Positions 8,629-38,082 of a DNA stretch of 38,082 nt are shown here, one piece after another (the stretch's first letter is position 1; each line of letters opens with the position of its first letter). The notes below the pieces were generated by a model that was not told where the DNA came from, did no database searches, and saw only the letters and a list, made by a program, of their open reading frames with translations. The position numbers and the translations under genes are program-made. Source of the stretch: Nevskia sp. (GTDB taxonomy: Bacteria; Pseudomonadota; Gammaproteobacteria; Nevskiales; Nevskiaceae); the NCBI GenBank assembly GCA_028291645.1, contig JAQGNU010000004.1, positions 1 through 38,082 on the forward strand, read 5' to 3'.

Positions 8629-10338
8629 ATGCCCGATTCACTGACTTCATCCGTCGACTTCAGTTCGCTGCGGGCGGATACAGCTAGCGACGGCACGCTG
8701 CCGATCGTGGCACCGCTGGCGGTCGACGATGCCACCGTGCAGTGGTCCGAGCGCTGCGACGTATTGGTGGTCGGCTGCGGTGCGGCGGGTGCAGCGACGG
8801 CGATCTCCGCACGCGAAGGCGGCGCCGCGGTGATCGTGGTCGACCGTTTCGACGGCGGCGGTGCCAGTGCCAAGAGCGGCGGCGTGGTCTATGCAGGCGG
8901 CGGCACCCGGCATCAGCTCAAAGCCGGCTATGAAGATACGCCGGCGGCGATGTTCCAATACCTGTGCCGCGAAGTCGGCGATGCGGTCAGCGAAGCCACC
9001 CTGCGGCGCTTCTGCGACGACAGCCGCGGCCTGCTCGAATGGCTCGAATCGATCGGCGCGGCCTTTGAATCAAACGCGCCGCCGCCGAAGACTTCGTATC
9101 CGAAGAATGGCGTCTATCTGTATTACTCCGGCAACGAATCGGTCGGCGGCTACGCGGAATACGCCAAGCCTGCGCCGCGCGGCCATCGCATGAACGACAC
9201 CGGCATGTCCGGCAAAGCGCTCTATGCGGTGCTGCGCCGCAAGGTCGAAAGCTTGCAGATTCCGATCCTGCTGCAGAGCGCCGTGCAACGTCTGGTGACG
9301 GACGCGAAAACCGGCGCAGTGATCGGTGCCGAGGTGCTGCGTTTCACCGCAGGCTCGGCCGCCGAGACCCGGCACCGCAAGCTGATGCAGCGTGCCGAGA
9401 ACCTGCATAACGTCGCACCCGGCGCGGCCGATCGTGCACGTGCACGCGCACTGGCACTGATGCTGGCGGAAGCCAAGCCGCAACTGCTGCGTGCCGCGCG
9501 CGGCGTCGTGCTCGCCACTGGCGGCTTCATCTTCAATCGCACGCTGGTCGAACGTTACGCGCCGAAATATCTGAAGACGATGCGCCTCGGCGCGACCGGC
9601 TGCGACGGCAGCGGCCTGCGTCTGGGTCAGAGCGTCGGCGCCGGTTCCGCGCGTCTGGACAAGGTTTCGGCCTGGCGCTTCATCAATCCGCCGACGCCGT
9701 GGGCGCGCGGCATGGTGGTGGATGCGCAAGGCCAGCGCTTCTGCAACGAACAATCCTACGGCGCGCGTCTGGGGGTGGAGATGTGCGAACGTCACGGCGG
9801 CCGCGCCTGGCTGGTGCTTGATGCCAAGCTGCGCCGGCAGGCCTTCCGCGAAGCCTTGTTCGGCAGGCTGTGGGCGTTTCAGAGCATTCCGGCGATTTTT
9901 CTGATGCTGTTCGCGCCGCGCGCGCGCGGCATCGAACAGCTCGCACAACGCATCGGCGTACCGTCGGCAGCCTTGCAAAAAACCTGGCAGGACTACAACG
10001 CCGCGGCGCAGGGCAAGCACAGCGATGCGCTCGGCAAGACCGCACCCATGATGCAGGCGCTGCAACAGCCACCGTTCTTCGCGTTCGAGATTTCGGCGCA
10101 CAGCAAGAGCTTCCCCTGCCCGGCGATCACGCTCGGCGGGCTGCGCGTCGACGAGCGCAGCGGCGCGGTGCTCGATACGCAGGGACATGCGATCAGCGGT
10201 CTCTACGCCACCGGTCGTGCGGCGGTCGGCATCGCGTCGAACAACTACGTCAGCGGTTTGTCGCTGGCGGATTGTCTGTGGTCGGGACGCCGCAGCGGCC
10301 GCCATCTGGCAGCAGCAGTTGCGTCGAAGCAGATTTAA
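8629..10338 (+). CDS. 3-ketosteroid Delta4-(5alpha)-dehydrogenase-like FAD protein
   Basis: A 569-residue FAD-dependent dehydrogenase of the fumarate reductase/KstD superfamily. The dinucleotide motif VVGCGAAGAA is at about residues 46-55, GASAKSGG follows at the flavin-contact region, VLATGGF marks the second FAD segment, and the C-terminal GLYATGRA block is present. The C-terminal catalytic stretch reads NNYVSGLSLAD (Tyr540, Ser542). The Y-x-S spacing is that described for Delta4-(5alpha)-ketosteroid dehydrogenases (Tyr466 and Ser468 in the Rhodococcus enzyme), while the Y-A-G-x-G of Delta1-dehydrogenases is absent. So I infer it desaturates ring A of 5alpha-3-ketosteroids to 4-ene-3-ones, as TesI does in Comamonas. 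It opens a tight plus-strand operon with SDRs and a CoA ligase. It has about 45 extra N-terminal residues. A different steroid-like substrate is possible. Confidence 0.68.
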   Translation: MPDSLTSSVDFSSLRADTASDGTLPIVAPLAVDDATVQWSERCDVLVVGCGAAGAATAISAREGGAAVIVVDRFDGGGASAKSGGVVYAGGGTRHQLKAGYEDTPAAMFQYLCREVGDAVSEATLRRFCDDSRGLLEWLESIGAAFESNAPPPKTSYPKNGVYLYYSGNESVGGYAEYAKPAPRGHRMNDTGMSGKALYAVLRRKVESLQIPILLQSAVQRLVTDAKTGAVIGAEVLRFTAGSAAETRHRKLMQRAENLHNVAPGAADRARARALALMLAEAKPQLLRAARGVVLATGGFIFNRTLVERYAPKYLKTMRLGATGCDGSGLRLGQSVGAGSARLDKVSAWRFINPPTPWARGMVVDAQGQRFCNEQSYGARLGVEMCERHGGRAWLVLDAKLRRQAFREALFGRLWAFQSIPAIFLMLFAPRARGIEQLAQRIGVPSAALQKTWQDYNAAAQGKHSDALGKTAPMMQALQQPPFFAFEISAHSKSFPCPAITLGGLRVDERSGAVLDTQGHAISGLYATGRAAVGIASNNYVSGLSLADCLWSGRRSGRHLAAAVASKQI

Positions 10339-10401
10339 CCAGCGTCCACCAGAACCTACGACCGGCCCCTCAGTGCCGGCGATCAACCAGGAGCGAGCAG
10401 C

Positions 10402-11172
10402 ATGGGGCGAGTGCAGGACAAGGTGGCGATCGTCACCGGTGCGGCCAGTGGCGTCGGCAAGGAAGACGCGATATTGCTGGCGCGCGAAGGCGCGCGCGTG
10501 GTGCTGACCGACATCAACGAAGAACTCGGCCGTGCAGTCGCCAAGGAGATCGGCGACAGCGCGCGGTTCGTCAAGCACGACATCGCCTCCGAAGACGGCT
10601 GGATCGAGGTGATGAAGCAGACCCACGACCAATTTGGCGGCCTCGACATCCTGGTCAACAACGCCGCGATCCTGGCGTACGGCACCATCGAAGACACCAC
10701 GCTGGAGCTGTGGCAGAAGATCCAGCGGGTCAACTCCGACGGCTATTTCCTCGGCTGCAAGCACGCGTTCGCGGCGATGAAGCAGCGCGGCGCCGGCTCG
10801 ATCGTCAACATGTCGTCGATGGCGGGCATCGGCGGCGTGTCCTCGTTCTGCGCCTATAGCGCGTCGAAGGGCGCGGTGGCGGCGCTGACGCGCAGCATCG
10901 CCGCACATGCGCGCATGAACGGCATCAAGATCCGCTGCAACTCGATTCATCCGGACGGCATCAAGACGCCGATGGTGTTCAATCTGCATTCGTCGATGCC
11001 GAAAGGTGCGAAGAGCGCGGTACGCGAAAAGGACGCCAAGCAGGTTCTGGCGCGCTTCGCCGAGCCGACCGATATCGCCAATCTGGTGCTGTTCCTCGCC
11101 TCCGACGAATCGCGTTTCATCCAGGGCGCGGAGATGCGCATCGACAATGGCTACCTGATGTGGGCGGATTAA
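10402..11172 (+). CDS. Short-chain dehydrogenase, hydroxysteroid dehydrogenase-like
   Basis: A 256-residue classical SDR. The cofactor motif TGAASGVG is at residues 12-19, the acidic residue after beta-2 (LTDIN) predicts NAD preference, NNAA follows, and the catalytic Ser139-Tyr152-Lys156 (YSASK) is complete. An ordinary C-terminal GAEMRIDNGY block closes the fold. AGGAGCGAGC precedes the ATG. Only 4 bp separate its stop from the next ATG (acyl-CoA synthetase), so the two are co-translated. In a steroid operon the natural guess is a 3- or 17-hydroxysteroid dehydrogenase, but SDR substrate cannot be read from sequence. Confidence 0.85.
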   Translation: MGRVQDKVAIVTGAASGVGKEDAILLAREGARVVLTDINEELGRAVAKEIGDSARFVKHDIASEDGWIEVMKQTHDQFGGLDILVNNAAILAYGTIEDTTLELWQKIQRVNSDGYFLGCKHAFAAMKQRGAGSIVNMSSMAGIGGVSSFCAYSASKGAVAALTRSIAAHARMNGIKIRCNSIHPDGIKTPMVFNLHSSMPKGAKSAVREKDAKQVLARFAEPTDIANLVLFLASDESRFIQGAEMRIDNGYLMWAD

Positions 11173-11176
11173 TGTA

Positions 11177-12751
11177 ATGAGCCTAACCGCTCCGCGAGCT
11201 TTTGCAGAATCGGTTGCGCGCCATGGCGCGCGCATCGCGGTGATCGGCGAAGACGGCGTTGCGCTCAGCTACGACGAACTCGACGCGCTGCGCCTGCGTG
11301 CAGCGCGTGCGCTGATCGCGTGCGGCATCGAGCACGGCGATCGCGTTGCGATCTGGGCGCAGAACGGTGTCGAGTGGATCGTCGCCGGTCTGGCGATCCA
11401 CAGTGTCGGCGGCGTGCTGGTGCCGATCAATACGCGCATGCGCGGCAATGAAGCCGGCTATGTGCTGCAGAAGAGCGGCGCGCGTCTGCTGTTCTGCACC
11501 GGCAAATTCCTCGGTCAGCACTACCCCACTCTACTGGCGCCGCACCGCCCGGCGAACCTGCGCTCGATCGTCGTGTTCAAGGATGCGGCTGCCGACGAGC
11601 TCGGCTGGAACGAGTTTCTCGCCTGCGGCGAGCGCATCGACGCGCAGGCCGTCGAGCAACGCAGCGCTGCGATCAAGCCGGACGACCGCCTCGACATCCT
11701 GTTCACGTCCGGCACTACCGGCCTGCCCAAAGGTGTCGTTAGCGGACACCAGCAGAATCTGCGCGTGATCGCCGACTGGTCGGCGCACATGGGCCTGGTG
11801 CCGGAAGATCGTTACCTCGTCGTCAACCCGTTCTTCCATTCGTTCGGCTACAAGGTCGGCTGGCTCGGCGGCCTGCTGGCCGGCTGCACGGTGCTGCCGC
11901 ATGCGATCTTCGATGCCGCCGCGGTGATGAAGCGCATCGCCGCCGAGCGCATCTCGGTATTGCCGGGACCGCCGACGCTGTTCATCAGCCTGCTCGCCGA
12001 TGGCGAACGTGCACACTACGACCTGTCGTCATTGCGCGCGACGATCACCGGTGCCGCGGCCATCGCGCCGTCGCTGATCGAACGCATCCGCGCCGAACTC
12101 GGCTTCAAGATCGTGCTGACCGGCTACGGCTTGACCGAGACCTGCGGCATCGTCTCGCTGTGCAAGCCGGACGACAGTGCCGAAACCATCGCATTGACCA
12201 GCGGTCGCGCGATTCCGGATGTCGAACTGCATTGCATCGATGGCGACGGCCGTGCGCTGCCGCCGGGTGAAGCCGGCGAAATCGTCGTGCGCGGCTACAA
12301 CGTCATGCAGGGCTATCTCGACGACGAGCAGGCGACGCGCGAAAACATCGACGCCGATGGCTGGCTGCATACCGGCGACATCGGCGTGCTCGACGCGCGC
12401 GGCTATCTGCGCATCACCGATCGGCTCAAGGACATGTACATCGCCGGCGGCTTCAACTGCTATCCGGCCGAAATCGAGCGCATCATCGCCGCGCATCCTG
12501 CGATTGCGCAGGTGGCGGTGATCGGCGTACCGGACGAGCGTCTCGGCGAAGTCGGCAAGGCCTGCGTGGTGCTGCGGCCGCAGGCGATGCTGGAACCCGC
12601 CGCGCTGATCGCCTGGTGCCGCGACAACATGTCGAACTACAAGGTGCCGCGCCAAGTGCAAGTGATGGCCGCGCTGCCGCTGAACGCATCCGGCAAGGTG
12701 CTCAAGTTTCAGTTGCGTGCGGAAGCCGTCGCCGCAACGCAGACCATATAA
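11177..12751 (+). CDS. Acyl-CoA synthetase (AMP-forming), FadD family
   Basis: A 524-residue ANL-superfamily ligase that activates a carboxylic acid with ATP and CoA. Motifs are in order: the P-loop-like LFTSGTTGLPKG (about 175-187), YGLTETCG (about 316), GWLHTGDIG (about 394), DRLKDMYIAGGFNCYPAEIE (about 414, the hinge region), and NASGKVLK (about 505) with the catalytic Lys. The length is typical of medium- and long-chain FadD proteins. Lying between SDR genes in a steroid unit, it is likely to activate a steroid side-chain acid or a ring-degradation acid such as a HIP-type propionate. That assignment is inference. No fault is visible. Confidence 0.92.
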   Translation: MSLTAPRAFAESVARHGARIAVIGEDGVALSYDELDALRLRAARALIACGIEHGDRVAIWAQNGVEWIVAGLAIHSVGGVLVPINTRMRGNEAGYVLQKSGARLLFCTGKFLGQHYPTLLAPHRPANLRSIVVFKDAAADELGWNEFLACGERIDAQAVEQRSAAIKPDDRLDILFTSGTTGLPKGVVSGHQQNLRVIADWSAHMGLVPEDRYLVVNPFFHSFGYKVGWLGGLLAGCTVLPHAIFDAAAVMKRIAAERISVLPGPPTLFISLLADGERAHYDLSSLRATITGAAAIAPSLIERIRAELGFKIVLTGYGLTETCGIVSLCKPDDSAETIALTSGRAIPDVELHCIDGDGRALPPGEAGEIVVRGYNVMQGYLDDEQATRENIDADGWLHTGDIGVLDARGYLRITDRLKDMYIAGGFNCYPAEIERIIAAHPAIAQVAVIGVPDERLGEVGKACVVLRPQAMLEPAALIAWCRDNMSNYKVPRQVQVMAALPLNASGKVLKFQLRAEAVAATQTI

Positions 12752-12768
12752 CCATAAGAGGACGTGTG

Positions 12769-13650
12769 ATGAGCGAGCCAGGATCCACTGCGAATCTGAA
12801 GGGTGTCATTGCGGTCGTCACCGGCGCGTCGCGCGGCGCCGGCAAGGGTATCGCCATCGCACTCGGTGCGGCGGGCGCCACTGTCTATGTCAGCGGCCGC
12901 ACACAGAAGGAAGGCGCAGCGCCGCTGCCCGGCACCATCGCCGGCACCGCCGACGCGGTGACCCAGGCCGGCGGCAAAGGCATCGCCGTCGCCTGCGATC
13001 ATGGCGACGACGCGCAGGTGAAAGCACTGTTCGATCGCGTCGCCAAGGAACAGGGCGGCCTCGACATCCTGGTCAACAACGCCACCACGCTGCACGACAA
13101 GCTGATCGAGCAAGGACCGTTCTGGCAGAAGCCGCTGGAACTGGTCGACATCCTCGACGTCGGCCTGCGTTCGGCCTACGTCGCCAGCTGGTATGCTGCA
13201 CCGCTGATGGTCGCGAAGAACGATGGCCTGATCGCGTTCACCTCGTCGTTCGGCGCCAGCTGCTACATGCACGGCCCCGGCTATGGCGCGCAGAAAGTCG
13301 GCGTCGACAAGTTCGCCAAGGACATGGCGGTGGATCTAAAACCCTATAACGTCGCCGCGGTGTCGATCTGGATGGGCATGCTGAAGACCGATCGCACCAA
13401 GCGTGTGATGGACGCCGATCCGGCCAAGTACGCCGGTTTCTGGGACATCGCCGAAAGCCCGGACTTCACCGGCCGCGTGCTCGCAGCCTTGTATCGTGAT
13501 GCCAAGCGCGCGGAGAAATCCGGCCTGGTCTTGATCGGTGCCGAAATCGCGCTCGAATACGGCATCAAGGATCTGCAAGGGCAACAACCGCCGTCGCATC
13601 GGCCGATGCTCGGCGGCCCGACGCAGGCACATCCGGCCATCGTGCAGTAG
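12769..13650 (+). CDS. Short-chain dehydrogenase, DHRS1-like
   Basis: A 293-residue SDR, longer than the classical 250, resembling the DHRS1-like group. TGASRGAG is at residues 18-25, an Arg in the SGRTQ segment after beta-2 suggests NADPH, NNAT follows, and the catalytic Tyr172 and Lys176 lie in YGAQK with Ser in TSSFGAS. The ATG at 12769 has AAGAGGA upstream and lies 17 bp after the CoA ligase stop; a longer in-frame reading into the ligase gene is spurious. Substrate unknown; probably a steroid hydroxyl or keto group, or a degradation intermediate. Confidence 0.84.
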   Translation: MSEPGSTANLKGVIAVVTGASRGAGKGIAIALGAAGATVYVSGRTQKEGAAPLPGTIAGTADAVTQAGGKGIAVACDHGDDAQVKALFDRVAKEQGGLDILVNNATTLHDKLIEQGPFWQKPLELVDILDVGLRSAYVASWYAAPLMVAKNDGLIAFTSSFGASCYMHGPGYGAQKVGVDKFAKDMAVDLKPYNVAAVSIWMGMLKTDRTKRVMDADPAKYAGFWDIAESPDFTGRVLAALYRDAKRAEKSGLVLIGAEIALEYGIKDLQGQQPPSHRPMLGGPTQAHPAIVQ

Positions 13651-13677
13651 ACGCCTGCCCCAAGCGGAAGCGCGAGA

Positions 13678-14514
13678 GTGGATCTGAGCGGGCGCGTTGC
13701 ACTGGTCACCGGAGCCTCGCGCGGCATCGGCCGCGCAATCGCGCAACGGCTGGCCGCGCATGGCGTCGCGGTGATCGTCAGCGCCAGCCCGCGTTCGCTC
13801 AACGGCTTGCAGGAAGTCTGCAAAGTGATCCGCGACTGCGGCGGCCGCGCCGCATTCGTAAGCACCGATCTGACCGATGTCGCTGCACGCGCACAACTGC
13901 TGGCCAAAGCGGCAGCGGCATTCGGACCAATCGATATTCTGATCAACAATGCCGCCGGCATCGCCGCCTACGCGCCACCAAGCCGCATCGATCTGGCGGC
14001 ACGCCAGGCGACGTTCGAACTCAACCTGCAGGCGCCGATCGATCTGATCCAGCAGGCATTGCCGAGCATGCGCGAGCGCCGTTGGGGCCGCATCGTCAAT
14101 ATCAGCAGCGAGGCCGCGCGACAGCCGCAGATTCCGTACATCGGCCCCGCCAAATTCGTGCACGCGCTGACCGTCTACGGCGCGTCGAAGGCGGCGCTGG
14201 AGCGCTACACGCTGGGTCTTGCCGCAGAACTGCAGGGCAGCGGCGTGCATGTCAATGCGGTGGCGCCGAGCCAGATCGCCAACACCGAGAGTGCGGCCAG
14301 CGTCGCGCGCCTGACCGCAGTCACGCGCCCGGAATCGATCGAGCCGCTGGAGTTGATGGCGGAAGCGGTGCTGCTGCTGATCGGCGGCAACTACAACGGT
14401 CGGCTGTGCAAGAGCCGCGAGCTACTGCAGCAGGCGCAACAAGTACTGCATGCATTGGACGGCAAAACCGTGATCGGCGATGCGCTGACGCTGGTGGATT
14501 TCGACAACGAATAA
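13678..14514 (+). CDS. Short-chain dehydrogenase with extended Ser-Tyr spacing
   Basis: A 278-residue SDR starting at a GTG with GGAAG upstream. TGASRGIG (about residues 10-17), NNAAG and a C-terminal tail are present. The catalytic Tyr167-Lys171 pair (YGASK) is intact, but the Ser of NISSE (about residue 144) is about 23 residues before the Tyr, against about 13 in classical SDRs, because of an insertion containing QPQIPYIGPAKF. The insertion should sit by the active site and may shape substrate specificity. The C-terminus ends in an unusual EPLELMAEAVLLL to DALTLVDFDNE segment rather than the standard VDGG tail. It is part of the plus-strand unit, 19 bp before the next SDR. Confidence 0.8.
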   Translation: MDLSGRVALVTGASRGIGRAIAQRLAAHGVAVIVSASPRSLNGLQEVCKVIRDCGGRAAFVSTDLTDVAARAQLLAKAAAAFGPIDILINNAAGIAAYAPPSRIDLAARQATFELNLQAPIDLIQQALPSMRERRWGRIVNISSEAARQPQIPYIGPAKFVHALTVYGASKAALERYTLGLAAELQGSGVHVNAVAPSQIANTESAASVARLTAVTRPESIEPLELMAEAVLLLIGGNYNGRLCKSRELLQQAQQVLHALDGKTVIGDALTLVDFDNE

Positions 14515-14532
14515 CTCAACAAGGAGAACCGC

Positions 14533-15312
14533 ATGGCTCGATTGAAGGACAAGGTCGCAATCATCACCGGCGGCGCACGCGGTATGGGCGCGGCGACGGT
14601 GCGTCTGTTCGTCGCCGAAGGCGCCAAGGTGGTGATCGGCGATGTACTCGACGCAGATGGCGCCAAGCTCGCGGCCGAGCTGAACGGCAACGCGATTTTC
14701 CTGCATCACGACGTCACCGACGAAGCCAGCTGGAACACGCTGATCGAGACCACGCTGGTAAAATTTGGTGCGGTCGACGTGTTGGTCAACAACGCCGGCG
14801 TGCTGCTGTTCCGCAGCATCGCCGAGACGGCTAAGGCCGATTTCGAGAAAGTGCTGGCGGTGAACCTGGTCGGCACTTTCCTCGGCGTGAAACTGGTCGG
14901 CGCGCAGATGGTCGCACGCAAGCGCGGCTCGATCGTCAACATCTCTTCGGTCGACGGCATGAAGGCCGCGAACGGTCTCAGTGCCTATTGCTCGAGCAAA
15001 TGGGGCAGCCGCGGCCTGACCAAAGTGGCGGCAATGGAATTCGGCCATCAGGGCGTGCGCGTCAACTCGGTGCATCCGGGCGGCGTCGACACCGCGATGG
15101 GCAATCCCTATGGCGAGTCGCGCGACGACGTCAACAAACGCTACGCGATGGTGCCGCTGCAGCGCGTCGCCGATCCGATCGAGGTCGCGCGCACCAGCCT
15201 GTTCCTTGCCAGCGACGATTCGTCCTATTTGTGCGGCGCCGAAATCGCGGTCGATGGCGGCATGCTGACCGGCCAATACTATGTCGGCTTTCCCGGCGCG
15301 CCGGGCGTCTAG
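14533..15312 (+). CDS. Short-chain dehydrogenase, 3alpha/20beta-hydroxysteroid dehydrogenase-like
   Basis: A 259-residue classical SDR. TGGARGMG is at residues 12-19, Asp in IGDVLDAD after beta-2 predicts NAD, NNAG is intact, and Ser, Tyr152 and Lys156 (YCSSK) form the catalytic set. The C-terminal AEIAVDGGMLTGQ is standard. The strong AAGGAGA site fixes the ATG. Overall it resembles 3alpha,20beta-hydroxysteroid dehydrogenases of the classical family, which fits the operon, but the actual position and stereochemistry cannot be stated. Confidence 0.85.
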   Translation: MARLKDKVAIITGGARGMGAATVRLFVAEGAKVVIGDVLDADGAKLAAELNGNAIFLHHDVTDEASWNTLIETTLVKFGAVDVLVNNAGVLLFRSIAETAKADFEKVLAVNLVGTFLGVKLVGAQMVARKRGSIVNISSVDGMKAANGLSAYCSSKWGSRGLTKVAAMEFGHQGVRVNSVHPGGVDTAMGNPYGESRDDVNKRYAMVPLQRVADPIEVARTSLFLASDDSSYLCGAEIAVDGGMLTGQYYVGFPGAPGV

Positions 15313-15330
15313 TCTAAAGACCAGCACAGC

Positions 15331-16170: not shown

Positions 16171-16253
16171 AGTCTGCATCACACAATAAGAACATCATCT
16201 GGCAATCAAGCCGTGTTGTACCGATCTCTGCAGCGGGGAAGCCTTGCATCGAA

Positions 16254-27606: not shown

Positions 27607-28098
27607 TCAAGCCGCCGGCAATTTCCTGCCGTGTTTCGCCAGCCAATGCGCTGTGATGTTGGGCGTTTCCTTGACCGGCGTGACGATCTCGAAGATGCGC
27701 TCGTAGCTGGCGTGCTGGATCAACCACTGGCCATCGCGCTTGACGTAGCGGTCGCGATACAGCGAGCTGCCGTCGGTGATGATCTTCTCGCGCAGGTTGA
27801 GGAACCAGTCTTTCAGGTACCAGACCCCGGTCGCTTCGGTTGGTGATACCAGATCGATCTCGGGATGGTTGACGTGGTGAAACGCGATCGCCTCGGCATG
27901 GAAGGAGTACGCGATGCCTTCGAGAATCTGGTCGCGCCCCTTGGCTTCCCACAGATAGCTGCCGCCGACGTAGCGCACGCTGGCGTCTTCGGTGAACAGT
28001 TCCTTGAGTTCGGTGATGTTGGCGGTATCGATGCAGCGGCAGTAGCGGTACTTGAGCCGCTTGATTGCTTCCAGATCCTCGTACGGCGGGATGTTCAT
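27607..28098 (-). CDS. SnoaL-like / NTF2-fold protein
   Basis: A 163-residue SnoaL-like protein: YEDLEAIKRLKYRYCRCIDTANITELKELFTEDASVRY at the N-terminus, YSFHAEAIAFHHVNHPEIDLV in the middle, and a beta-sheet end GVWYLKDWFLN, DGSSLYRDRYVKRDGQWLIQHASYERIFE. Residues HHVNHPEI are a typical conserved patch of this subgroup. A strong AAGGAGG site precedes the ATG. It is the last gene of the sulfatase unit, 52 bp behind the degenerate SDR. It could be a dehydratase or isomerase for a ring intermediate; nothing more specific is supported. Confidence 0.76.
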   Translation of the reverse strand: MNIPPYEDLEAIKRLKYRYCRCIDTANITELKELFTEDASVRYVGGSYLWEAKGRDQILEGIAYSFHAEAIAFHHVNHPEIDLVSPTEATGVWYLKDWFLNLREKIITDGSSLYRDRYVKRDGQWLIQHASYERIFEIVTPVKETPNITAHWLAKHGRKLPAA

Positions 28099-30020: not shown

Positions 30021-31768
30021 TGATCGATCGGCGTCAGCAGCGGCGGCAGGATCGGCTGCTTGACGCCGACGCGCGTGACGTAGGCGCGCCATTCGTCGGT
30101 GAGCTGCGCGACGATGTCCGGATTCTGTGCGGCGACATCGGTGGTCTCGCCGCGGTCACTGTCGAGCTGGTACAACTGCCAGTCGTGATTGATCAGCAGT
30201 GCCGCTGATGGCACCAGATAGTTGACCACGCGCGTCATCTTCCACGATCCGCGCCGCACGTAACGGATGTCGTTGACCTCGTCGGCGAAGACTTCGCGAT
30301 CGTCGTGCACGCTGCTGCGCTGGCCATTCAGCAGCGGCAGCAGCGAGCTGCCTTCGAGCGGCGCCACCGCGTGCCCCTGGTACTGATCGCCTGGATCGGG
30401 CTGGCCGCTCACTGCCAGTATCGTCGGCACGACATCCTTGAGTGACGACAGCGCTGCACTCGGCGCCGCACCGCCGCTCTGCTGTGGCAAGCGCATGATT
30501 GCCGGCACGCCGATGCCGCCCTCGGCGGTGAAGCCCTTGAACAGACGAAACGGCGCGGTGCCGACTTCGGCCCAACGCGTGCTACGGAAAATGAACGAGC
30601 CCGGCTTGCCGTAGTTGGCGTAGGCATTGTCGATGTCGGTATTGCCGGTGCCGTCGACGTACGGAATGAAGCCGTAGCCCATGCCGTCCGCACCGTTGTC
30701 GGACATGAACACGATCAGCGTGTTGTCGTACGCGCCGATCTGTTTCAGGTAGGCGACCAGCTTGCCGACATTGTCGTCGAGATTGCTCAGCATGCCGGCG
30801 AACACTTCCATGATGCGCGCTTCGCTTTTCTTGTCGTTCGCCGACAGCGACGCCCAAGATTGATTGGTCAGCACGCCGGGCTGGCCGAACCGCGTGATCA
30901 GGGCCTCATCGCCTGGATTGGCTTTGAAGTCCTGCGGAATCAGGCCGAGGTCTTTCTGCTTCTGCATGCGCGCTGCGCGGATCGCGTCGTAGCCGGCATC
31001 GTAGCGGCCGCTGTAAAGATTCAGGTAGGCATCCGGCACCTGCAAGGGGAAATGCACCGCCTGGAACGCGAGGTAGGCGAAGAACGGCTTGCCGTCGCCA
31101 TGATCCTGGCCGATGTACCGCTGCAGCTTGCCGACGAAGTAATCGCTCGAATAGAAGTCGTCCGGAATCACCGCCTGCACGCCGTTCTCGAAATACGCAT
31201 GCGCGGCCGATTCGGCGCGCGACGCGGTCACCGCATAGTTGCTCGCAAACGCGGCGCTGTAGTCGAGCGCGAACGACTGCTCGAAGCCCTGCGCGACCGG
31301 GCCGCCGCCGCCGAGATGCCACTTGCCGGCCATGTAGGTGTGATAGCCGGCGTCGCGCAGCAGCTGCGCGACGGTGCGCGCCTGCGCATTGAGGCTGCCC
31401 TTGTAGTCGTCGTCGCCGGGGTAGAACACGTTGCTTTCCGGCAGCGTGCCGACGCCGACCAGATGATGGTCCGCACCGGTCAGCAGCTCGGCGCGCGAGG
31501 TCGCGCACAGCGGCGTGCTGTGGAAGTTGCTCAGCACGCGGCCCTGCTGCGCGAGCTGGTCGATGTTCGGCGTGCTGATCTCGCTGCCGAATGCACTGAG
31601 ATCGGAGTAGCCGAGATCGTCGACCAGAATCACCAGCACATTGGGCTTGCCGGCGCTGCCAACGCCGGCGACCGAAGTGGATTTTCCGCAAGCCGATTGC
31701 AGCAGCAAAGACGGCAACAACAGCAAGGTCACGGCTGCGCGAATGTGCGCACGAACTGCCTGTTTCAA
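30017..31768 (-). CDS. Type I sulfatase, exported, candidate steroid sulfatase
   Basis: A 583-residue arylsulfatase-type hydrolase. An N-terminal signal (MKQAVRAHIRAAVTLLLLPSLLLQ) ends at Cys27, perhaps a lipoprotein site though the lipobox QSAC is imperfect. Metal residues Asp50/Asp51 (LVDDLGYSDL), the modified-Cys segment PLCATSRAELLTG (Cys88), MAGKWHLGG and FMSDNGADG are visible. The signature is C-A-T-S-R, so the Pro of the canonical C-x-P-x-R is Thr, confirmed at the codon level. I start at the TTG ending at 31768 because GGGAGGGG lies 6-7 bases upstream; a GTG at 31807 would give 596 residues but leaves a worse signal peptide. FGE follows with a 4-base overlap. Neighbours suggest a steroid sulfate substrate, but a phenol or sugar sulfate is possible. 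Confidence 0.87.
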   Translation of the reverse strand: MKQAVRAHIRAAVTLLLLPSLLLQSACGKSTSVAGVGSAGKPNVLVILVDDLGYSDLSAFGSEISTPNIDQLAQQGRVLSNFHSTPLCATSRAELLTGADHHLVGVGTLPESNVFYPGDDDYKGSLNAQARTVAQLLRDAGYHTYMAGKWHLGGGGPVAQGFEQSFALDYSAAFASNYAVTASRAESAAHAYFENGVQAVIPDDFYSSDYFVGKLQRYIGQDHGDGKPFFAYLAFQAVHFPLQVPDAYLNLYSGRYDAGYDAIRAARMQKQKDLGLIPQDFKANPGDEALITRFGQPGVLTNQSWASLSANDKKSEARIMEVFAGMLSNLDDNVGKLVAYLKQIGAYDNTLIVFMSDNGADGMGYGFIPYVDGTGNTDIDNAYANYGKPGSFIFRSTRWAEVGTAPFRLFKGFTAEGGIGVPAIMRLPQQSGGAAPSAALSSLKDVVPTILAVSGQPDPGDQYQGHAVAPLEGSSLLPLLNGQRSSVHDDREVFADEVNDIRYVRRGSWKMTRVVNYLVPSAALLINHDWQLYQLDSDRGETTDVAAQNPDIVAQLTDEWRAYVTRVGVKQPILPPLLTPIDQ

Positions 31769-31865
31769 GTTGCTCCCCTCCCTGACCAAGCACCACTCTA
31801 AACTCACCCCATCCGTGCGGGGCGCATATTTATAGATCGATTACATCAAGCACCTGGCCTGAAGC

Positions 31866-32630
31866 TCAGTGTTTATTGGCATTCGCAGCATCCAGGAACG
31901 CCGGCCGCTCGCCGCCGCCATGCAGCAGCAGATTGGTGCCGGATGCATAGCTGGCCGCCGGCGACGCCAGCCAGACGCAGGCGTCGCCGATGTCGGACGG
32001 TTCGGCCATGCGCTGCAGCGGCACCGTCGCCGCTACCGCGGCGATGCCGGCGGCGTCGCCGTAATGCAGTTCGCTGAGTTCGGTCCGTACGAGTCCGGGA
32101 CTGACCGCGACCACGCGCACTTTCGGCGCCCATTCGACCGCCAGCGTCTGCGTCAGGCTGAGAATGCCGGCCTTGGCGGCGCCGTACGCTGCCGTGCCGG
32201 GCGAAGGCCGCAGTGCGCTGACGCTGGCGACGAACACGATCACGCCGCCGTCGTCCTGCGTCTGCATCAGCCGATTCGCCTGCTGTGCGAGATGCAAGGG
32301 CGCCAGCAGATTGAGTTGAATAATCGATTCATGAAACCGTGGCGAGGCCTTGTCGGCCAGCGCGAACGGCGCACCGCCGGCGTTGTTGACCAGCACATCG
32401 AGCCGGCCGTGGCGCTGCTGGATTTCGGCGAACAGTGCTTCGACGGCAGCACGATCGCGCACGTCGCAGGCGATAAATTCCGCATCGCGGCCATCGTGCG
32501 TCGGCAGTGTTTCCGGTGCCAGCCGGCCACAGACCAGCACCTGCGCGCCGCTCGCCAGGAAACGCTCGCTGATGCCGCGGCCGACGCCCTTGGCGCCGCC
32601 GGTGACGAGAACCACTTTTGCGCTGTTCAT
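31866..32630 (-). CDS. Short-chain dehydrogenase
   Basis: A 254-residue classical SDR. TGGAKGVG is at residues 10-17, an Arg after beta-2 (CGRLAPE) suggests NADP(H), NNAGG is intact, and Ser136, Tyr149 and Lys153 (YGAAK) are complete. The C-terminal YASGTNLLLHGGGERP is slightly altered from the usual VDGG. No Shine-Dalgarno motif is visible before the ATG. It leads the minus-strand unit that continues to the sulfatase after 97 bp. A 3- or 17-hydroxysteroid dehydrogenase acting after desulfation is a reasonable guess. Confidence 0.83.
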   Translation of the reverse strand: MNSAKVVLVTGGAKGVGRGISERFLASGAQVLVCGRLAPETLPTHDGRDAEFIACDVRDRAAVEALFAEIQQRHGRLDVLVNNAGGAPFALADKASPRFHESIIQLNLLAPLHLAQQANRLMQTQDDGGVIVFVASVSALRPSPGTAAYGAAKAGILSLTQTLAVEWAPKVRVVAVSPGLVRTELSELHYGDAAGIAAVAATVPLQRMAEPSDIGDACVWLASPAASYASGTNLLLHGGGERPAFLDAANANKH

Positions 32631-33000
32631 GGGAGGTTACTAGGCTCGACCGACGACGATTCAATACGACTGTGCGGTATCGCCAACGTGGCTGACAACA
32701 CCTGCTGCAGGTTGCCATCAATGGCGGGTCGTGATGGACCGCTGACAATGACTTTGAGTCATCCTCCGCTCTTAGCTCATCATTGCCATCCATGGCGCGA
32801 CACTCGCACATCTCCAACCCCCGGCCCCGCCATCCTGGCGGGTCGTGATGGACCGCTGACAATGACTTTGAGTCATTGCCAAGGCGCGGTCCATCACCCA
32901 AAAGGACGAAGCCGTGCGGGCGTGGTTCCGCGAGCATGGGCAATCCTCGCCGGCGCTGGGCATTCGCGTCGTCTCCACTTTGCTAGCGACCGCGCCGCCG
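32631..33000. other. Divergent intergenic region with repeats ahead of the meta-cleavage operon
   Basis: A 370-bp gap between the minus-strand SDR and the plus-strand hydrolase. It holds two copies of a 41-bp direct repeat (32722-32762 and 32836-32876) and a nested hairpin. Short open readings here show no family similarity. Promoters for both flanking units are expected, but I cannot place them with confidence. Confidence 0.55.
32722..32876. repeat. 41-bp perfect direct repeat, two copies
   Basis: Two identical 41-bp copies lie at 32722-32762 and 32836-32876, starting TGGCGGGTCGTGATGGACC and ending TTGAGTCAT, with starts 114 bp apart. Each copy contains the inverted repeat AATGACT-TTG-AGTCAT. 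The second copy is completed on its right by GCGGTCCATCAC (32886-32897), the reverse complement of GTGATGGACCGC (32845-32856), giving a nested hairpin over 32845-32897; the first copy lacks that arm. It could be a REP/MITE-like element or a regulator-binding region. Confidence 0.75.
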
Positions 33001-33831
33001 ATGACGACCAAACCCGTACCCGAAGGCCACTACGTCAAGCTCGCCAACGGGCATCGCATCCACTATCTTGATCAGGGCTCGGGCCCGGTGGTGGTGTGGC
33101 TGCACGGCTCCGGCTCCGGCGCCTGCGGCCACAGCAATTTCAAAGGCAACTACCCCTATCTGGTCGAACAGGGCTACCGCAATATCGTCATCGACCACCT
33201 CGGCTACGGCTACTCCGACAAGCCGGACAACATCGACTACCCGATCGAGCTGTTCGTCGAATGCGTTAAGCAGACGCTGGACCACATCGGTGTCGCCAAG
33301 TACACGCTGATCGGCAACTCGCTCGGCGGCGCGGTGGCGCTGCGCTTCGCGGTGGACCATCCGAGCAACGTCGAGAAGCTGGTGCTGATGGCGCCGGGCG
33401 GCATCGAGAACCAGCCGGATTATTTCCTGATGCCGGCGATGGCGAAGATGAAGGAAGTGTTCATGTCGCCCGAGCCGGTGACCGAGACCCGGCTGAAGGA
33501 TTTTTTCGAGACGGTGATGGTGGTCGACAAAAGTTACATCACCGACGCGCTGGCGCACGAGCGCTTCGAGCTGATGAAGCTGCAGAACCCGCAGGTGATC
33601 AAGACCATGAAGGTGCCGAACATGGCCGACCGCCTGGGCGAGATCAAGTGCCCGGCACTCGGCTTCTGGGGCATGAACGAACAGCTGATGCCGGAAACCG
33701 GCATCCTCAAGCTGGCCAAGGGCATGCCGCAGATGCGCATGATCCTGGTGCCGCAGGCCGGCCACTGGGTGATGATCGAGCACCGCGACTTGTTCAACCG
33801 CATGACGCTCGACTTCCTGCAGAACGGCTGA
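33001..33831 (+). CDS. Alpha/beta hydrolase, meta-cleavage C-C bond hydrolase (HsaD/MhpC/BphD-like)
   Basis: A 276-residue hydrolase that splits the vinylogous 1,5-diketone made by extradiol ring cleavage. HGSGSGACGHSNF is the oxyanion-hole region, GNSLGG (Ser107) the nucleophile elbow and GHWVMIEH (His255) the general base. The acid position, conserved Asp in BphD, MhpC and HsaD, is Glu227 here (WGMNEQLMP), and its 28-residue distance to His255 equals BphD Asp237 to His265. The ATG at 33001 is taken because homology begins there; an upstream in-frame start has no support. It starts the meta-cleavage operon and is 2 bp ahead of the hydratase ATG. Confidence 0.88.
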   Translation: MTTKPVPEGHYVKLANGHRIHYLDQGSGPVVVWLHGSGSGACGHSNFKGNYPYLVEQGYRNIVIDHLGYGYSDKPDNIDYPIELFVECVKQTLDHIGVAKYTLIGNSLGGAVALRFAVDHPSNVEKLVLMAPGGIENQPDYFLMPAMAKMKEVFMSPEPVTETRLKDFFETVMVVDKSYITDALAHERFELMKLQNPQVIKTMKVPNMADRLGEIKCPALGFWGMNEQLMPETGILKLAKGMPQMRMILVPQAGHWVMIEHRDLFNRMTLDFLQNG

Positions 33832-33833
33832 GC

Positions 33834-34631
33834 ATGAGCCTGCCCGTGCTGCGTATCATCGAACTCGGCGACGAACTGTTCGCCGCGCTGCGCAGCCGCC
33901 AGGTTCTGGACCCGCTGAGCACGCGCGAAACAGCGATCACGATCGACGACGCTTATCGCATTTCCCTGCGCATGCTGGAACGGCGCCAGGCCGATGGCGA
34001 GCGCGTCGTCGGCAAGAAGATCGGCGTCACCAGCAAGCCGGTGCAGGACATGCTCGGCGTGCATCAGCCGGACTTCGGCTTCCTGACCGATCGCATGCAC
34101 GTCGCCGACGGCGCCAGCGTCAGTCTCAGCAAAGCCGGGCTGATCCAGCCGCGCGCCGAAGGCGAGATCGCGTTCGTGCTGAAGAAAGATCTGCGCGGTC
34201 CCGGCATCACCGAAGCGCAGGTGCTGGACGCGACCGACTATGTCTCACCCTGCTTCGAGATCGTCGACTCGCGCATCCGTGACTGGAAGATCAAGATTCA
34301 GGACACCGTCGCCGACAACGCCTCTTGCGGCGTGTTCGTGCTGGGCGCCGCACGGATCGATCCGAATACGCTCGATCTTGCCGCGGTGACGATGGAAATC
34401 CGCAAGAACGGCGTGCAGGTTGCCAGCGGTGTCGGTGCGGCGGTGCAAGGCCATCCGGCGACCGCGGTGGCCTGGCTGGCGAACACGCTGGGCGCGTTCG
34501 GCATTCCGTTTCTGGCTGGAGAAATCATCCTCTCGGGTTCGCTGGCGCCGCTGTTGCCGGCGGTCCCGGGCGATTTCTTCGAGATGCGCCTGAGCGGCAT
34601 CGGCACGGCTTCGGTAGGCTTTGAGGCCTAG
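33834..34631 (+). CDS. mhpD: 2-hydroxypenta/hexa-2,4-dienoate hydratase
   Basis: A 265-residue hydratase adding water to 2-hydroxy-2,4-dienoates to give 4-hydroxy-2-oxo acids (MhpD/BphH/HsaE family). Family features: VGKKIGVTSKPVQDMLGVHQPDFGFLTD, a metal-site stretch IQPRAEGEIAFVLKKDL, FEIVDSRIRDWKIKIQDTVADNAS, and the end GEIILSGSLAPLLPAVPGDFFEMRLSGIG. The ATG is 2 bp after the hydrolase stop (TGA-GC-ATG), which implies co-translation; a longer reading into the hydrolase gene is spurious. In steroid breakdown it would act on 2-hydroxyhexa-2,4-dienoate. Substrate length cannot be told from sequence. Confidence 0.94.
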   Translation: MSLPVLRIIELGDELFAALRSRQVLDPLSTRETAITIDDAYRISLRMLERRQADGERVVGKKIGVTSKPVQDMLGVHQPDFGFLTDRMHVADGASVSLSKAGLIQPRAEGEIAFVLKKDLRGPGITEAQVLDATDYVSPCFEIVDSRIRDWKIKIQDTVADNASCGVFVLGAARIDPNTLDLAAVTMEIRKNGVQVASGVGAAVQGHPATAVAWLANTLGAFGIPFLAGEIILSGSLAPLLPAVPGDFFEMRLSGIGTASVGFEA

Positions 34632-34660: not shown

Positions 34661-35209
34661 ATGCACCCGATCCTCAACATCGCCGACGCCCAGACCGATC
34701 ACACGCTGACGCACGGCGCGCAGTTCGAAATGCGCATGGCGCAACTCACCGACAAGCTCGGCGCCGCTCAGATCGGCGCCAACCTGACGACGGTGCCGCC
34801 GGGCAAGGCGGCGTTTCCGTTTCATCACCACCACGTCAACGAAGAGCACTTCTTCATCGTCCGCGGCAACGGCGTATTGCGCTTCGGCGAGCAACGGCAC
34901 ACGGTGAAGCCTGGCGACTATGTTGTCGCGCCGGCCGGCGGACCCGAGCTGGCGCATCAGTTCATCAACACCGGCAGCGAGGAGCTCGCCTACCTGGCGA
35001 TCTCGACCAATCGCGCGCCGGAGGTGGTCGGCTATCCGGACTCGCAACGCACCGGCGTGCGCACGGTGCCCTATGGGGAGCCCGGCCCGGCCGCTTTTTT
35101 CATCGACGATCGTCAACGTGACGCGATCAGCTACTGGGATGGCGAAGACGGCAGCCCGGTGCGCGCGGTAATCGAACAGCAGCAGACAGGAAGCAGGTCC
35201 ACATCATGA
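34661..35209 (+). CDS. Cupin-domain protein in the meta-cleavage operon
   Basis: A 182-residue single-cupin protein. Cupin motif 1 is [19 protein letters not shown] with His/His/Glu metal ligands, and motif 2 lies around [21 protein letters not shown]. An unusual C-terminal tail ([19 protein letters not shown] to the end) follows the barrel. It overlaps the next gene by 4 bases (ATGA), so it is translated with the aldehyde dehydrogenase and is very likely part of the pathway. It could be a metal-dependent dioxygenase, isomerase or a sugar- or phenol-type cupin. It is not a standard member of hsa or mhp operons. Confidence 0.82.
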
Positions 35210-36117
35210 AAAAGATCAAGTGCGCCATCATCGGCCCTGGCAACATCGGCACCGACCTGCTGTACAAGCTGCGCCGCAGCACGCTGCTGGAGCCGGTGTG
35301 GATGGTCGGCGTCGATCCGACCAGCGAAGGCCTGGCGCGCGCGCGCGAATTCGGCCTGAAGACGACCGACAAAGGCGTCGACGGTCTGCTGCCGTTTGTT
35401 GCGGCTGACGGCGTGCAGATCGCGTTCGATGCGACCTCCGCCTACGCGCACAAGGAAAATTCCGACAAGCTCAACGCGCTCGGCGTGATGATGATCGACC
35501 TGACGCCGGCCGCGATCGGTCCCTACTGTGTACCGCCAATCAACCTGAAGGCGCACGCCGGCAAGCGCGAGATGAACGTCAACATGGTCACCTGCGGCGG
35601 TCAGGCGACAATCCCGATGGTGTATGCGGTATCGCGTGTGCAGCGCGTCAAGCACGCCGAGATCGTCGCCACTGTTGCCTCGAAATCGGTCGGCCCCGGC
35701 ACGCGCAAGAACATCGACGAATTCACCCGCACGACGTCCGGCGCGGTCGCCAAGATCGGCGGCGCGGATGTCGGCAAGGCGATCATCGTGATCAATCCGG
35801 CCGAACCGCCGATGATCATGCGCGACACCATCCACTGCCTGACGCTCGATGCACCCAAGCAGAAGGAGATCGAAGCCTCGGTACGCGACATGATCGCCGA
35901 GGTGCAGAAGTACGTGCCCGGCTACCGCTTGAACAACGGCCCGGTGTTCGACGGCATGCGCGTCACCACCTTCATGGAAGTCGAAGGCCTCGGCGATTTC
36001 CTGCCGAAATACGCCGGCAATCTCGACATCATGACGGCGTCGGCGACGCGTACTGCAGAAATGTTCGCAGAGGAAATGCTCGCCGGGCGGCTCAGTTTCG
36101 AACCGGTCGCGGCCTGA
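35206..36117 (+). CDS. mhpF: Acetaldehyde/propanal dehydrogenase (acylating)
   Basis: A 303-residue CoA-acylating aldehyde dehydrogenase of the MhpF/BphJ/HsaG family, making acyl-CoA and NADH from the short aldehyde released by the aldolase. The NAD motif [15 protein letters not shown] is at the N-terminus, the catalytic Cys130 lies in [12 protein letters not shown], and the VNINPAEPP-like segment reads [14 protein letters not shown]. Start overlaps the cupin by 4 bases. It precedes the aldolase by 17 bp, its channelling partner in this family. In a steroid context the aldehyde would be propanal. Confidence 0.95.
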
Positions 36118-36134: not shown

Positions 36135-37178
36135 ATGAATCTGAAAGGCACCAAGATCAAAGTGCATGACATGTCGCTGCGCGACGGCATGCACCCGACG
36201 CGGCACCAGATCACGATCGCGCAGATGCAGTCCGTCGCCCAGGGCATGGACGCCGCCGGCGTGCCGCTGATCGAAGTCACCCACGGCGACGGACTCGGCG
36301 GCGCTTCGGTCAACTACGGCTTTCCCGCCGCCAGCGACGAGGAATATCTGCGCGCAGTGATCCCGCTGATGAAGACCGCGAAAGTCTCGGCGCTGCTGAT
36401 CCCCGGCATCGGCACCATCGACCACCTGCGCATGGCCGCCGACTGCGGCGTCGCTGCGATCCGCATCGCCACGCATTGCACCGAGGCCGACGTTGCCGAA
36501 CAGCACATCAACCTCGGCCGCAAGATGGGCCTCGACACCGTCGGCTTCCTGATGATGGCGCACATGATCGAGCCCGAGCAGCTGCTGCAACAGGCGCTGC
36601 TGATGGAGAGCTACGGCGCCAACTGCCTGTACGCGGCCGACTCCGCCGGCTACATGCTGCCGGACGACGTCAGCGCGCGCATCCGCCTGTTGCGCGAAAA
36701 GCTCAAGCCGGAAACCGAGATCGGTTTCCACGGTCATCACAATCTGGCGATGGGCATCGCCAACTCACTGGCTGCGGTCGAAGCCGGCGCGCGCCGCATC
36801 GACGGTGCCTGTGGCGGCATGGGTGCCGGTGCGGGCAACACACCGCTGGAAGTGTTCGTCGCGGTGTGCAATCGCATGGGCATCGAAACCGGCGTCGACG
36901 TGTTCAAGATTTCCGATGTCGCCGAAGATCTGGTGACGCCGATTCTCGACTTCCCGGTGCGCATCGATCGCAATTCGCTGACGCTCGGCTATGCCGGCGT
37001 GTATTCCTCGTTCCTGCTGTTCGCCAAGCGCGCCGAAGCCAAATACGGCATCTCCGCGCGCGAGATTCTGCTGGAGCTGGGACGCCGCAAAATGGTCGGC
37101 GGCCAGGAAGACATGATCGAAGACACTGCGCTGACGATGCTGCGCGAGCGCGGACAGTTGAAAGCCGCCGCCGCATAA
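36135..37178 (+). CDS. mhpE: 4-hydroxy-2-oxovalerate/hexanoate aldolase
   Basis: A 347-residue aldolase of the MhpE/BphI/HsaF family, cutting 4-hydroxy-2-oxo acids to pyruvate and an aldehyde that is channelled to the partner dehydrogenase. [15 protein letters not shown] holds the catalytic Arg and metal-binding Asp, [15 protein letters not shown] holds the metal His pair, and [17 protein letters not shown] follows. C-terminal communication-domain sequence [24 protein letters not shown] is present. An AGGAGA site precedes the ATG. Together with mhpF and mhpD it completes the lower meta-cleavage route. Confidence 0.96.
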
Positions 37179-37199
37179 GTCATCGGCCGCGCTGCGCCG

Positions 37200-37733
37200 A
37201 TGAATCCGCGCGCCTGGGGGCCGATCAAGCAGCTGGCCTACGTTGTCGATAACCTCGATGCCAGCATCCAGCGCTGGATCGATCTGCACGGCGTCGGTCC
37301 CTGGACGGTCTATCGCAACGCCAGCATGCACGGGCATTTCCTCGATGTGGAGACGACGGTCAAGCTGAATGTCGGTCTCTCGTATCAGCACGACTTGCAG
37401 ATCGAACTGATCGAGCCGCTTGGCCTTGCGCCCTCGCCCTATCAGGATTCCAGCGGCCGAGCGCTGCTCGGCATGCATCACATCGCCTGGCATTCGGATG
37501 ATCTGGATCGCGATCTGATCGAGGCACGCGCACGCGGACTTCCCAGCGTATTCGAAGCCGGCAACGGCGCGGTGCGCATCGCCTATCTCGCATCGCGGCA
37601 GCAGGCGGGCATGCTGTTCGAGTTCATCGAAACCACGCCGCAGCTGCTCGCAGGTTTTGCCGCCGGTCTGCAGGCTTCGCGAGACTGGGACGGTATCAGC
37701 GCGCCGGTCACCGTCATCGACCTCGCGGCCTGA
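37200..37733 (+). CDS. VOC-superfamily (glyoxalase/epimerase-like) protein
   Basis: A 177-residue VOC-fold protein. Paired beta-alpha-beta-beta-beta modules are visible (IKQLAYVVDNLDASIQRWIDLHGVGPW, then GMHHIAWHSDDLDRDLIEARARGLPS), with possible metal ligands His in the second module and Glu in FEFIE near the C-terminus. It is far too short to be the missing extradiol dioxygenase (about 300 residues), so it is more likely an epimerase, lyase or isomerase, as in methylmalonyl-CoA epimerase-like proteins. It sits 21 bp behind the aldolase and 3 bp ahead of the last SDR, so it belongs to the operon. Substrate unknown. Confidence 0.78.
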   Translation: MNPRAWGPIKQLAYVVDNLDASIQRWIDLHGVGPWTVYRNASMHGHFLDVETTVKLNVGLSYQHDLQIELIEPLGLAPSPYQDSSGRALLGMHHIAWHSDDLDRDLIEARARGLPSVFEAGNGAVRIAYLASRQQAGMLFEFIETTPQLLAGFAAGLQASRDWDGISAPVTVIDLAA

Positions 37734-37736
37734 GCC

Positions 37737-38082
37737 ATGGCTGCGCTGCATCGCTTCCTGCGCGGGCGGTTCGTCGATGCAGTCTTCGCGCCGCGCATCG
37801 ACCTGCACGGCAAACGGATCATCGTCACCGGCTGCGCCGCCGGCTCCATCGGCTTCCAGACCGCGCGCATCCTCGCATCCTGGGGCGCAGACGTTATCGT
37901 CACCACGCGCAAGAATCCCGCAGCGATCGCCGCCGCACTGCGCGCGCAAATCGAGCGCGCGCCGCAGCACGGCCGCATCGACGCGCATGCGCTCGACCTT
38001 GCGGATGCAAGCTCGACCAACACTTTCGCCGCCTGGGTTCTGGAAAATCGCGGCGAGCGGCTCGACGTGCTGGTCAACAACG
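37737..38082 (+). CDS. Short-chain dehydrogenase (3' end beyond window)
   Basis: The N-terminal 115 residues of an SDR that runs off the right edge. TGCAAGSIG at about residues 31-39 is the cofactor motif, with one extra residue before the last Gly compared with TGxxxGIG, and LDVLVNN near the edge is the start of the NNAG motif. An N-terminal extension of about 20 residues (LHRFLRGRFVDAVFAPRIDL) precedes the fold. The ATG is 3 bp after the VOC stop. It is the ninth SDR of the island. Confidence 0.8.
   Translation, partial: MAALHRFLRGRFVDAVFAPRIDLHGKRIIVTGCAAGSIGFQTARILASWGADVIVTTRKNPAAIAAALRAQIERAPQHGRIDAHALDLADASSTNTFAAWVLENRGERLDVLVNN

Follow-up and report, generated by a model that had tools for sequence, protein, structure and literature searches.

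A sulfatase-maturase gene pair in a variable slot of a predicted steroid degradation island of Nevskia

Introduction

Why should a sulfatase gene, accompanied by a gene for a formylglycine-generating enzyme (FGE), lie in the middle of a set of genes for steroid breakdown? The question is raised by a stretch of 38,082 nucleotides from Nevskia sp. (contig JAQGNU010000004.1 of assembly GCA_028291645.1; "the window" below means this whole stretch), for which an earlier note, made from the letters alone, had proposed a catabolic island built for sulfated steroids. Judging from comparison of related genomes, we conclude that the pair is an accessory module in a variable slot, not a core steroid gene, because a congener has nearly the same island without the pair and 34 of 41 equivalent slots lack the sulfatase. 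Its most likely role, a reading that we favour with some reserve, would be the periplasmic removal of sulfate from steroid or sterol sulfates ahead of ring attack.

Results

The pair and its slot beside hsaD

The pair belongs to an arm of genes on one strand, in the order short-chain dehydrogenase (SDR), sulfatase, FGE, SDR and SnoaL-like gene, which faces away from the meta-cleavage hydrolase gene hsaD. The features concerned are as follows.

27607..28098, minus strand: SnoaL-like protein, distinct from the ketosteroid isomerase (PF13577 88 bits)
28151..28924, minus strand: short-chain dehydrogenase on the far side of the slot
29022..30020, minus strand: FGE with an N-terminal hydrophobic anchor (PF03781 241 bits; full open reading frame (ORF) 29022-30092)
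30017..31768, minus strand: sulfatase resembling the arylsulfatase PAS, with a lipoprotein-type signal (PF00884 176 bits; full ORF 30017-31807)
31866..32630, minus strand: short-chain dehydrogenase SDR_31866, between the sulfatase and hsaD
32631..33000, no strand: divergent promoter region that separates hsaD from the sulfatase arm and contains an inverted repeat twice
33001..33831, plus strand: HsaD/BphD-type meta-cleavage product hydrolase (BphD 142 bits, HsaD 127 bits)

We compared 58 genomes of the family, the window's own included. A sulfatase match at an E value of 1e-50 or better was present in 19 of them, and one of at least 61% identity, taken here as this sulfatase type, in 10; hsaD and hsaA were each found in 41, kshA in 31 and this FGE type in 18. 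All ten carriers of the close sulfatase have hsaD (Fisher p 0.02, uncorrected for kinship), and in seven (G000, G039, G040, G042, G044, G056 and G057) the gap between the two genes is 1102-3098 bp. The linked sulfatase is always divergent from hsaD, with an orthologue of SDR_31866 between them, in three genus groups, and the FGE gene adjoins it in six of the seven linked genomes; in G012 the sulfatase is cut by a contig end. The cultured species Solimonas marina and S. soli (loci L010 and L007) are among the carriers of the linked sulfatase. Outside the family, a class search of 369 genomes gave a match at E 1e-150 in one genome besides the window's own.

The congener mentioned above, G024, carries the island in the same order from the gene at 8629 to HsaF (65-96% identity), with the sulfatase and FGE absent. 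Genes for a LolA-like protein and a molybdopterin oxidoreductase occupy the place of the pair; the whole genome gave no sulfatase match at E 1e-50, and an FGE relative of 53% identity lies elsewhere in it. The glyoxalase gene was not found after HsaF in G024, where 2.5 kb of other sequence precedes a YidB gene. Because its hsaD is 65% identical to that of the window, versus 84-92% for SDR_31866, hsaE and hsaG, the stretch in G024 may be a mosaic.

The surroundings of hsaD were read in all 41 family genomes having this gene. An orthologue of SDR_31866 lies at most 6 kb upstream of hsaD in every one of them, and the cargo beside it is a sulfatase in 7, a DUF3604 gene in 18, a GH5 gene in 2, a molybdopterin gene in 1 and none of these in 13. 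The arrangement varies in detail: the cargo stands between the SDR and hsaD, not beyond the SDR, in G005, G037 and G046, the SDR and the cargo are separated by another gene or by 1-2 kb in G038, G040, G044 and G057, and in G057 a GH5 gene also follows the FGE. Mapped on a tree built from four island proteins, the presence or absence of the sulfatase requires five changes, at least four of them on well supported (starred) branches, which argues that the sulfatase was repeatedly gained or lost at one place; DUF3604 needs six changes. The earlier note is thus upheld in that the pair is part of the island, standing 1.1-3.1 kb from hsaD in seven of ten carriers of several genera; that the island was built for sulfated steroids does not stand, given the congener's island and the many slots without sulfatase.

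A PpiC-like protein and a 323-aa-type protein each accompany 17 of the 18 slot DUF3604 genes; a Pfam scan of one copy agrees with the PpiC-like assignment (29 bits, cut-off 27), and Pfam likewise supports DUF3604 in three copies. Slot examples of DUF3604 are L131 6343-8367, L129 5203-7065 and L137 6024-7985. No slot among the 41 holds both a sulfatase and DUF3604 (hypergeometric p 0.011, with no kinship correction); a pair test that allows for kinship found too few pairs to settle the matter, so this exclusivity is suggestive. In the assemblies of the seven sulfatase-slot genomes, DUF3604 has no match in four and a weaker one on another contig in three. DUF3604 is not tied to the slot alone, because strong copies lie elsewhere in G008, G014 and G023. 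A search of solved chains at E up to 1 gave no sequence relative of DUF3604, and among open-licence PubMed Central papers the one match listed for its name concerned Chlamydia transposon mutants.

Two further observations concern sulfatases outside the slot. In Xylophilus sp. (L032, 9848-15518) a PAS-like sulfatase with the canonical motif CSPTR and an FGE are followed in a row by hsaE-, hsaG- and hsaF-like genes, possibly an independent joining of desulfation and meta-cleavage genes. A TonB receptor beside unlinked sulfatases was considered and rejected: the two neighbours of 721/722 aa, one each in L005 and L006, proved to be acetyl-CoA hydrolase C-terminal proteins rather than TonB receptors, and a single fragment of a TonB barrel stands close to the sulfatase of L006. 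This points to no general transporter link.

The sulfatase and its predicted maturation

The sulfatase probably starts at a TTG after GGGAGGGGAG, and its N-terminus is a hydrophobic signal ending in LLLQSAC, which was judged by eye to be lipobox-like. It is similar over its full length to the Pseudomonas aeruginosa arylsulfatase PAS (AtsA; 1hdh, 394 bits), and its AlphaFold model (mean pLDDT 88.8) has 1hdh at Foldseek rank 1 (TM 0.84/0.89, 39% identity), which together with the PF00884 score places the full-length fold in the PAS-like S1 group. Using a residue numbering of PAS that we assume to be correct, the expected residue was found at 10 of 10 active-site positions, position +2 excluded: metal ligands, sulfate ligands, the modified cysteine and the arginine are all kept where checked. 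We class the protein as a sulfatase by fold and ligands only, because the +2 proline of the FGE recognition motif is absent, the activation motif being CATSR with threonine at that position; formylglycine would form at this motif.

Sulfatases near that of the window carry CATSR, CATTR or CSTTR, and most of the more distant ones among the loci compared carry CSPTR, as does a second sulfatase copy in L005. The CATSR/CATTR proteins of the family form a single clade of 16 rows (SH-aLRT 99) in a tree of 100 rows made by a quick method, in which long branches elsewhere leave the deeper order unsure; CATSR also occurs in two Bacteroidota rows. CAITR or CAVTR, putatively another proline-free activation motif, marks an extensive group of related PAS-like sulfatases on the tree; it takes in many of the Burkholderiales loci in the L022-L080 series, mostly with an FGE gene alongside.

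Within its own assembly the sulfatase is the sole strong PF00884 match, the remaining ones scoring 38 and 24 bits. The GC contents of the other island genes span 0.591-0.673, a range that includes the sulfatase (0.641) and that the FGE (0.677) slightly exceeds; recent import of the pair was dropped as an idea, since these values give no clear sign of it.

The FGE reaches 219 bits against the solved FGE 6s07 and has the domain of the aerobic type. Its CxxxxC element (CADNYC, aligned with CHESYC of 6s07) contains what we take to be the active-site cysteine pair. The likely start codon is a GTG that overlaps the sulfatase stop by 4 bp, and a GTGA or ATGA overlap is present in seven of eight genomes examined (a set without G040 and G012), G042 being different; the two genes may be co-transcribed. 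That sulfate is removed outside the cytoplasm, as the earlier note had it, is in keeping with the N-termini: export of both proteins is indicated because six of the seven sulfatase N-termini set out carry a lipobox-like end (G023 is the exception) and the FGE begins with a hydrophobic anchor, both judged by eye.

The surrounding island

The gene run is dense from 8629 to the window end in the ORF listing, the codon-based gene call and the family scans, whose scope left out a long ORF at 1-3106 (minus) and 6448-8017 (minus). The stretch 8629-37733 is confirmed, at the level of sequence families, as a predicted 9,10-seco-type steroid island, and the remaining features are listed below.

3099-4295: carA, left of the island
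left of the island: a cytochrome b561 gene and two YceI genes (family scans)
8629..10338, plus strand: FAD dehydrogenase, delta4-(5alpha)-ketosteroid dehydrogenase-like (best solved relative 4at0, 194 bits)
10402..17162, plus strand: five SDR genes, a FadD3-family acyl-CoA ligase and a methyltransferase-family gene, in identical order in G024
11177-12751, plus strand: the FadD3-family acyl-CoA ligase (721 bits, cut-off 657)
17706-18494: tryptophan-2,3-dioxygenase-family gene (294 bits, cut-off 391)
18544..19773, minus strand: old-yellow-enzyme-type flavin oxidoreductase (PF00724 169 bits; start from the codon-based gene call)
19787..20545, minus strand: short-chain dehydrogenase
20591..22348, minus strand: KstD2, 3-ketosteroid delta1-dehydrogenase-like (645 bits to 7p18)
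22361..23557, minus strand: HsaA-like flavin monooxygenase (NF045629 366 bits; 2rfq 266 bits)
23848..24966, plus strand: KshA-like 3-ketosteroid 9alpha-hydroxylase oxygenase (KshA_C 188 bits)
25039..25509, minus strand: second SnoaL-like ORF, distinct from the isomerase (85% conserved in G024; fold judged by eye)
25581..25961, minus strand: delta5-3-ketosteroid isomerase (KSI; 90 bits to 1ocv)
26315..27493, plus strand: LuxR-type regulator candidate (GerE 20.5 bits, below the cut-off of 23.5; 88% in G024)
33834..34631, plus strand: HsaE-type hydratase (TIGR03220 401 bits, cut-off 409)
34661..35209, plus strand: cupin
35206..36117, plus strand: HsaG-type acetaldehyde dehydrogenase
36135..37178, plus strand: HsaF-type aldolase
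37200..37733, plus strand: glyoxalase-fold protein

The earlier note had named a KSI, two ring-A flavin dehydrogenases, KshA-like and HsaA-like proteins, the lower meta-cleavage genes and the sulfatase-FGE pair, and each class was recovered, scoring far above chance in profile and solved-structure sequence searches. For KstD2 the closest solved enzyme is the 3-oxosteroid 1-dehydrogenase 7p18, the NCBIfam score being 599 bits against a model cut-off of 788; for the FAD dehydrogenase at 8629-10338 it is the 3-ketosteroid delta4-(5alpha)-dehydrogenase 4at0. The KshA-like protein passes the KshA_C cut-off of 23.3 by a wide margin and reaches 180 bits against the KshA structure 4qdc, so that KstD and KshA, two of the genes expected in a 9,10-seco steroid degradation cluster, are both recognised. 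The best NCBIfam match of the HsaA-like protein is HsaA itself, below the cut-off of 450. The true KSI is the steroid delta-isomerase relative at 25581-25961; the SnoaL-like ORFs at 27607 and 25039 encode different proteins.

The hydrolase, hydratase, aldolase and acetaldehyde dehydrogenase of the lower meta-cleavage set are recognised at the level of enzyme families, and their steroid-specific identity is left putative because the best solved match of the hydrolase is BphD, ahead of HsaD, and the hydratase stays just under its model cut-off. The window showed no HsaC-type gene; the top-scoring HsaC-like gene of the assembly is on contig C44 (NF045631 263 bits, cut-off 450), near IpdE2-like (149 bits, cut-off 450), thiolase-fold and enoyl-CoA hydratase genes.

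The tryptophan-2,3-dioxygenase-family gene is 83% identical and equally placed in G024, and distant relatives of it (35-36%) adjoin PAS-like sulfatases in two other metagenome-assembled genomes (L027 and L033).

The divergent promoter region

Two copies of the inverted repeat TGAC-NTTNA-GTCA, at 32749-32761 and 32863-32875, lie in the space between hsaD and the sulfatase arm; each belongs to a longer repeated stretch, whose copies begin at 32722 and 32836. Among the loci compared first, the inverted repeat seemed specific to sulfatase-linked genomes, and the idea of a sulfatase-specific operator was dropped because the family-wide scan found the 13-bp pattern in 42 of 58 genomes (the reversed control gave at most one match per strand and genome); it is absent from G042 and G044 despite their linked sulfatase. 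A REP-like hairpin and a regulator site are the candidates for its nature. A structured RNA was also dropped: Rfam gave no family at gathering score in the window and chance-level matches only in the promoter region; folding is strong in two of the seven sequences examined (z -3.5 and -7.3; the other five z -1.1 to 0.3). A CAAAAGGACGAAGC-like stretch stands shortly before hsaD (about 32899-32912 in the window) and at the same place in L119, L121, L123, L126, L129, L130 and L132; it is common to genomes with and without the sulfatase, and a small hairpin is possible in some.

Discussion

What the pair may do

If the island degrades steroid nuclei by the aerobic 9,10-seco route and both products of the pair are exported, the membrane-anchored FGE would act on the sulfatase before it folds, oxidising the active-site cysteine of the latter, and the sulfatase, anchored by its lipid, would then remove sulfate in the periplasm from steroid or sterol sulfates, e.g. 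delta5-3beta-sulfates such as dehydroepiandrosterone sulfate. The freed alcohol would enter the cell, where an SDR would oxidise it, the KSI isomerise it, KstD desaturate it and KshA open it, with final breakdown through HsaA, HsaC (from another contig) and HsaD-G. An exported hydrolase together with its maturase, acquired or lost time and again at a single site of a catabolic island, is in line with an entry step that changes according to the conjugate on offer. The slot, often filled with other genes in related bacteria, may thus determine the range of modified steroids open to the cell. The KSI in the same island fits delta5-3beta-alcohols, and such alcohols are commonly sulfated.

PAS shares the full-length fold and the catalytic residues with the window sulfatase. 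It differs in having S-P-T-R after the modified residue where the latter has C-A-T-S-R, and in lacking the counterpart's lipoprotein-type signal and place inside a steroid island; PAS itself is, we assume, cytoplasmic and sulfur-regulated. Hydrolysis of steroid sulfates by PAS is reported in PMC8746622, which puts this activity within reach of a PAS-like enzyme.

Several facts weigh against desulfation of steroids as the role of the pair. The slot of G040 has two tandem sulfatases without FGE, the FGE being on another contig; no island gene lies beside the pair in the 20 kb read in G023 or the 11 kb read in G026, and second copies of the pair lie elsewhere in G056 and G057, so that the pair can live without the island. 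CATSR departs from the canonical activation consensus C/S-X-P/A-X-R as worded in the passages seen of PMC12421950 and PMC8746622, and by the same portion of the latter PyuS, of the same sulfatase superfamily, failed on three steroid sulfates tested. Neither a transporter nor a TonB receptor was found among the window ORFs scanned, and no regulator site linking the sulfatase arm to other parts of the island was demonstrated. A lone exported arylsulfatase could also serve sulfur scavenging.

This last thought leads to a general arylsulfatase that lies in the island by chance and, under sulfate shortage, releases sulfate from its phenolic or other esters, with no special tie to steroids. PAS, the closest known enzyme, is an arylsulfatase, the protein is the only strong sulfatase match of its assembly, and unlinked copies exist in G023, G026, G056 and G057; we nevertheless hold chance placement rather unlikely, in view of the same position beside hsaD in seven of ten carriers of three genus groups, the state changes on the island tree and the location of the sulfatase within a same-strand run of island genes. 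It would take still more to regard the protein as inactive or differently activated, its cysteine unconverted without the proline and its role another one: the proline-free motifs of the close Nevskia-Solimonas clade (CATSR, CATTR, CSTTR) and of many Burkholderiales (CAITR, CAVTR) invite the idea, and the conserved cysteine, arginine and all checked metal and sulfate ligands, together with a neighbouring FGE whose two cysteines are conserved and whose gene overlaps that of the sulfatase, make it improbable.

A different substrate class, with the same mechanism and overlapping the reading we favour, would be the sulfated bile acids or sterols of animals rather than hormone sulfates. In the passage seen of PMC12882949, a Caenibius tardaugens arylsulfatase is upregulated on cholate and the authors suggest that it desulfates sulfated bile acids. 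The window holds no specific sign of a C5 acid side chain, and the ligase at 11177 is of the FadD3 type rather than the steroid-24-oyl type (289 bits, cut-off 750); we keep this class as a minority possibility.

Relation to known systems

The Comamonas testosteroni TA441 mega-cluster (tes/scd/ste), compared by description only, shares the A/B-ring set with 3-ketosteroid dehydrogenases, tesA, tesD, tesE, tesF and tesG; in the portions seen of PMC13101464 the legend of this 120-kb cluster names no sulfatase and the word occurs 0 times in the main text. The C. tardaugens arylsulfatase, EGO55_09215, is alike in being a sulfatase tied to steroid metabolism, by cholate induction; it is known by expression and is likened here by description only, the passage of PMC12882949 describing no FGE partner or slot. 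Estradiol-3-sulfate degraders show the phenotype that the module would help to give, and no sulfatase gene is named in the part seen of PMC8360860. These two are the nearest literature cases, as far as the excerpts go: among the matches listed from open-licence PubMed Central papers, no description of a sulfatase inside a steroid gene cluster was found. The main texts of two genome surveys of steroid degraders contain no words beginning with sulfat, Solimonas or Nevskia.

Significance

We offer, as a doubtful extension, an exchangeable deconjugation slot beside hsaD, in which sulfatase with FGE, DUF3604 with the PpiC-like protein, and the GH5 hydrolase would strip different conjugating groups before ring attack; DUF3604 would then represent a novel type of hydrolase for steroid conjugates, served by a folding partner of its own, and the CATSR sulfatases a proline-free class of FGE substrates. 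Such a natural clade, if true, would matter for aldehyde-tag work.

The body excretes many steroid hormones as sulfates or in other conjugated forms, and in sewage and rivers the loss of the sulfate sets the active hormone free again, as PMC8360860 states for estradiol-3-sulfate. Finding genes that couple desulfation with ring breakdown in a single organism would reveal which organisms can remove conjugated hormones without releasing them, and the variable slot is a direct way to seek further deconjugating enzymes, which puts the uncharacterised DUF3604 family in a testable setting.

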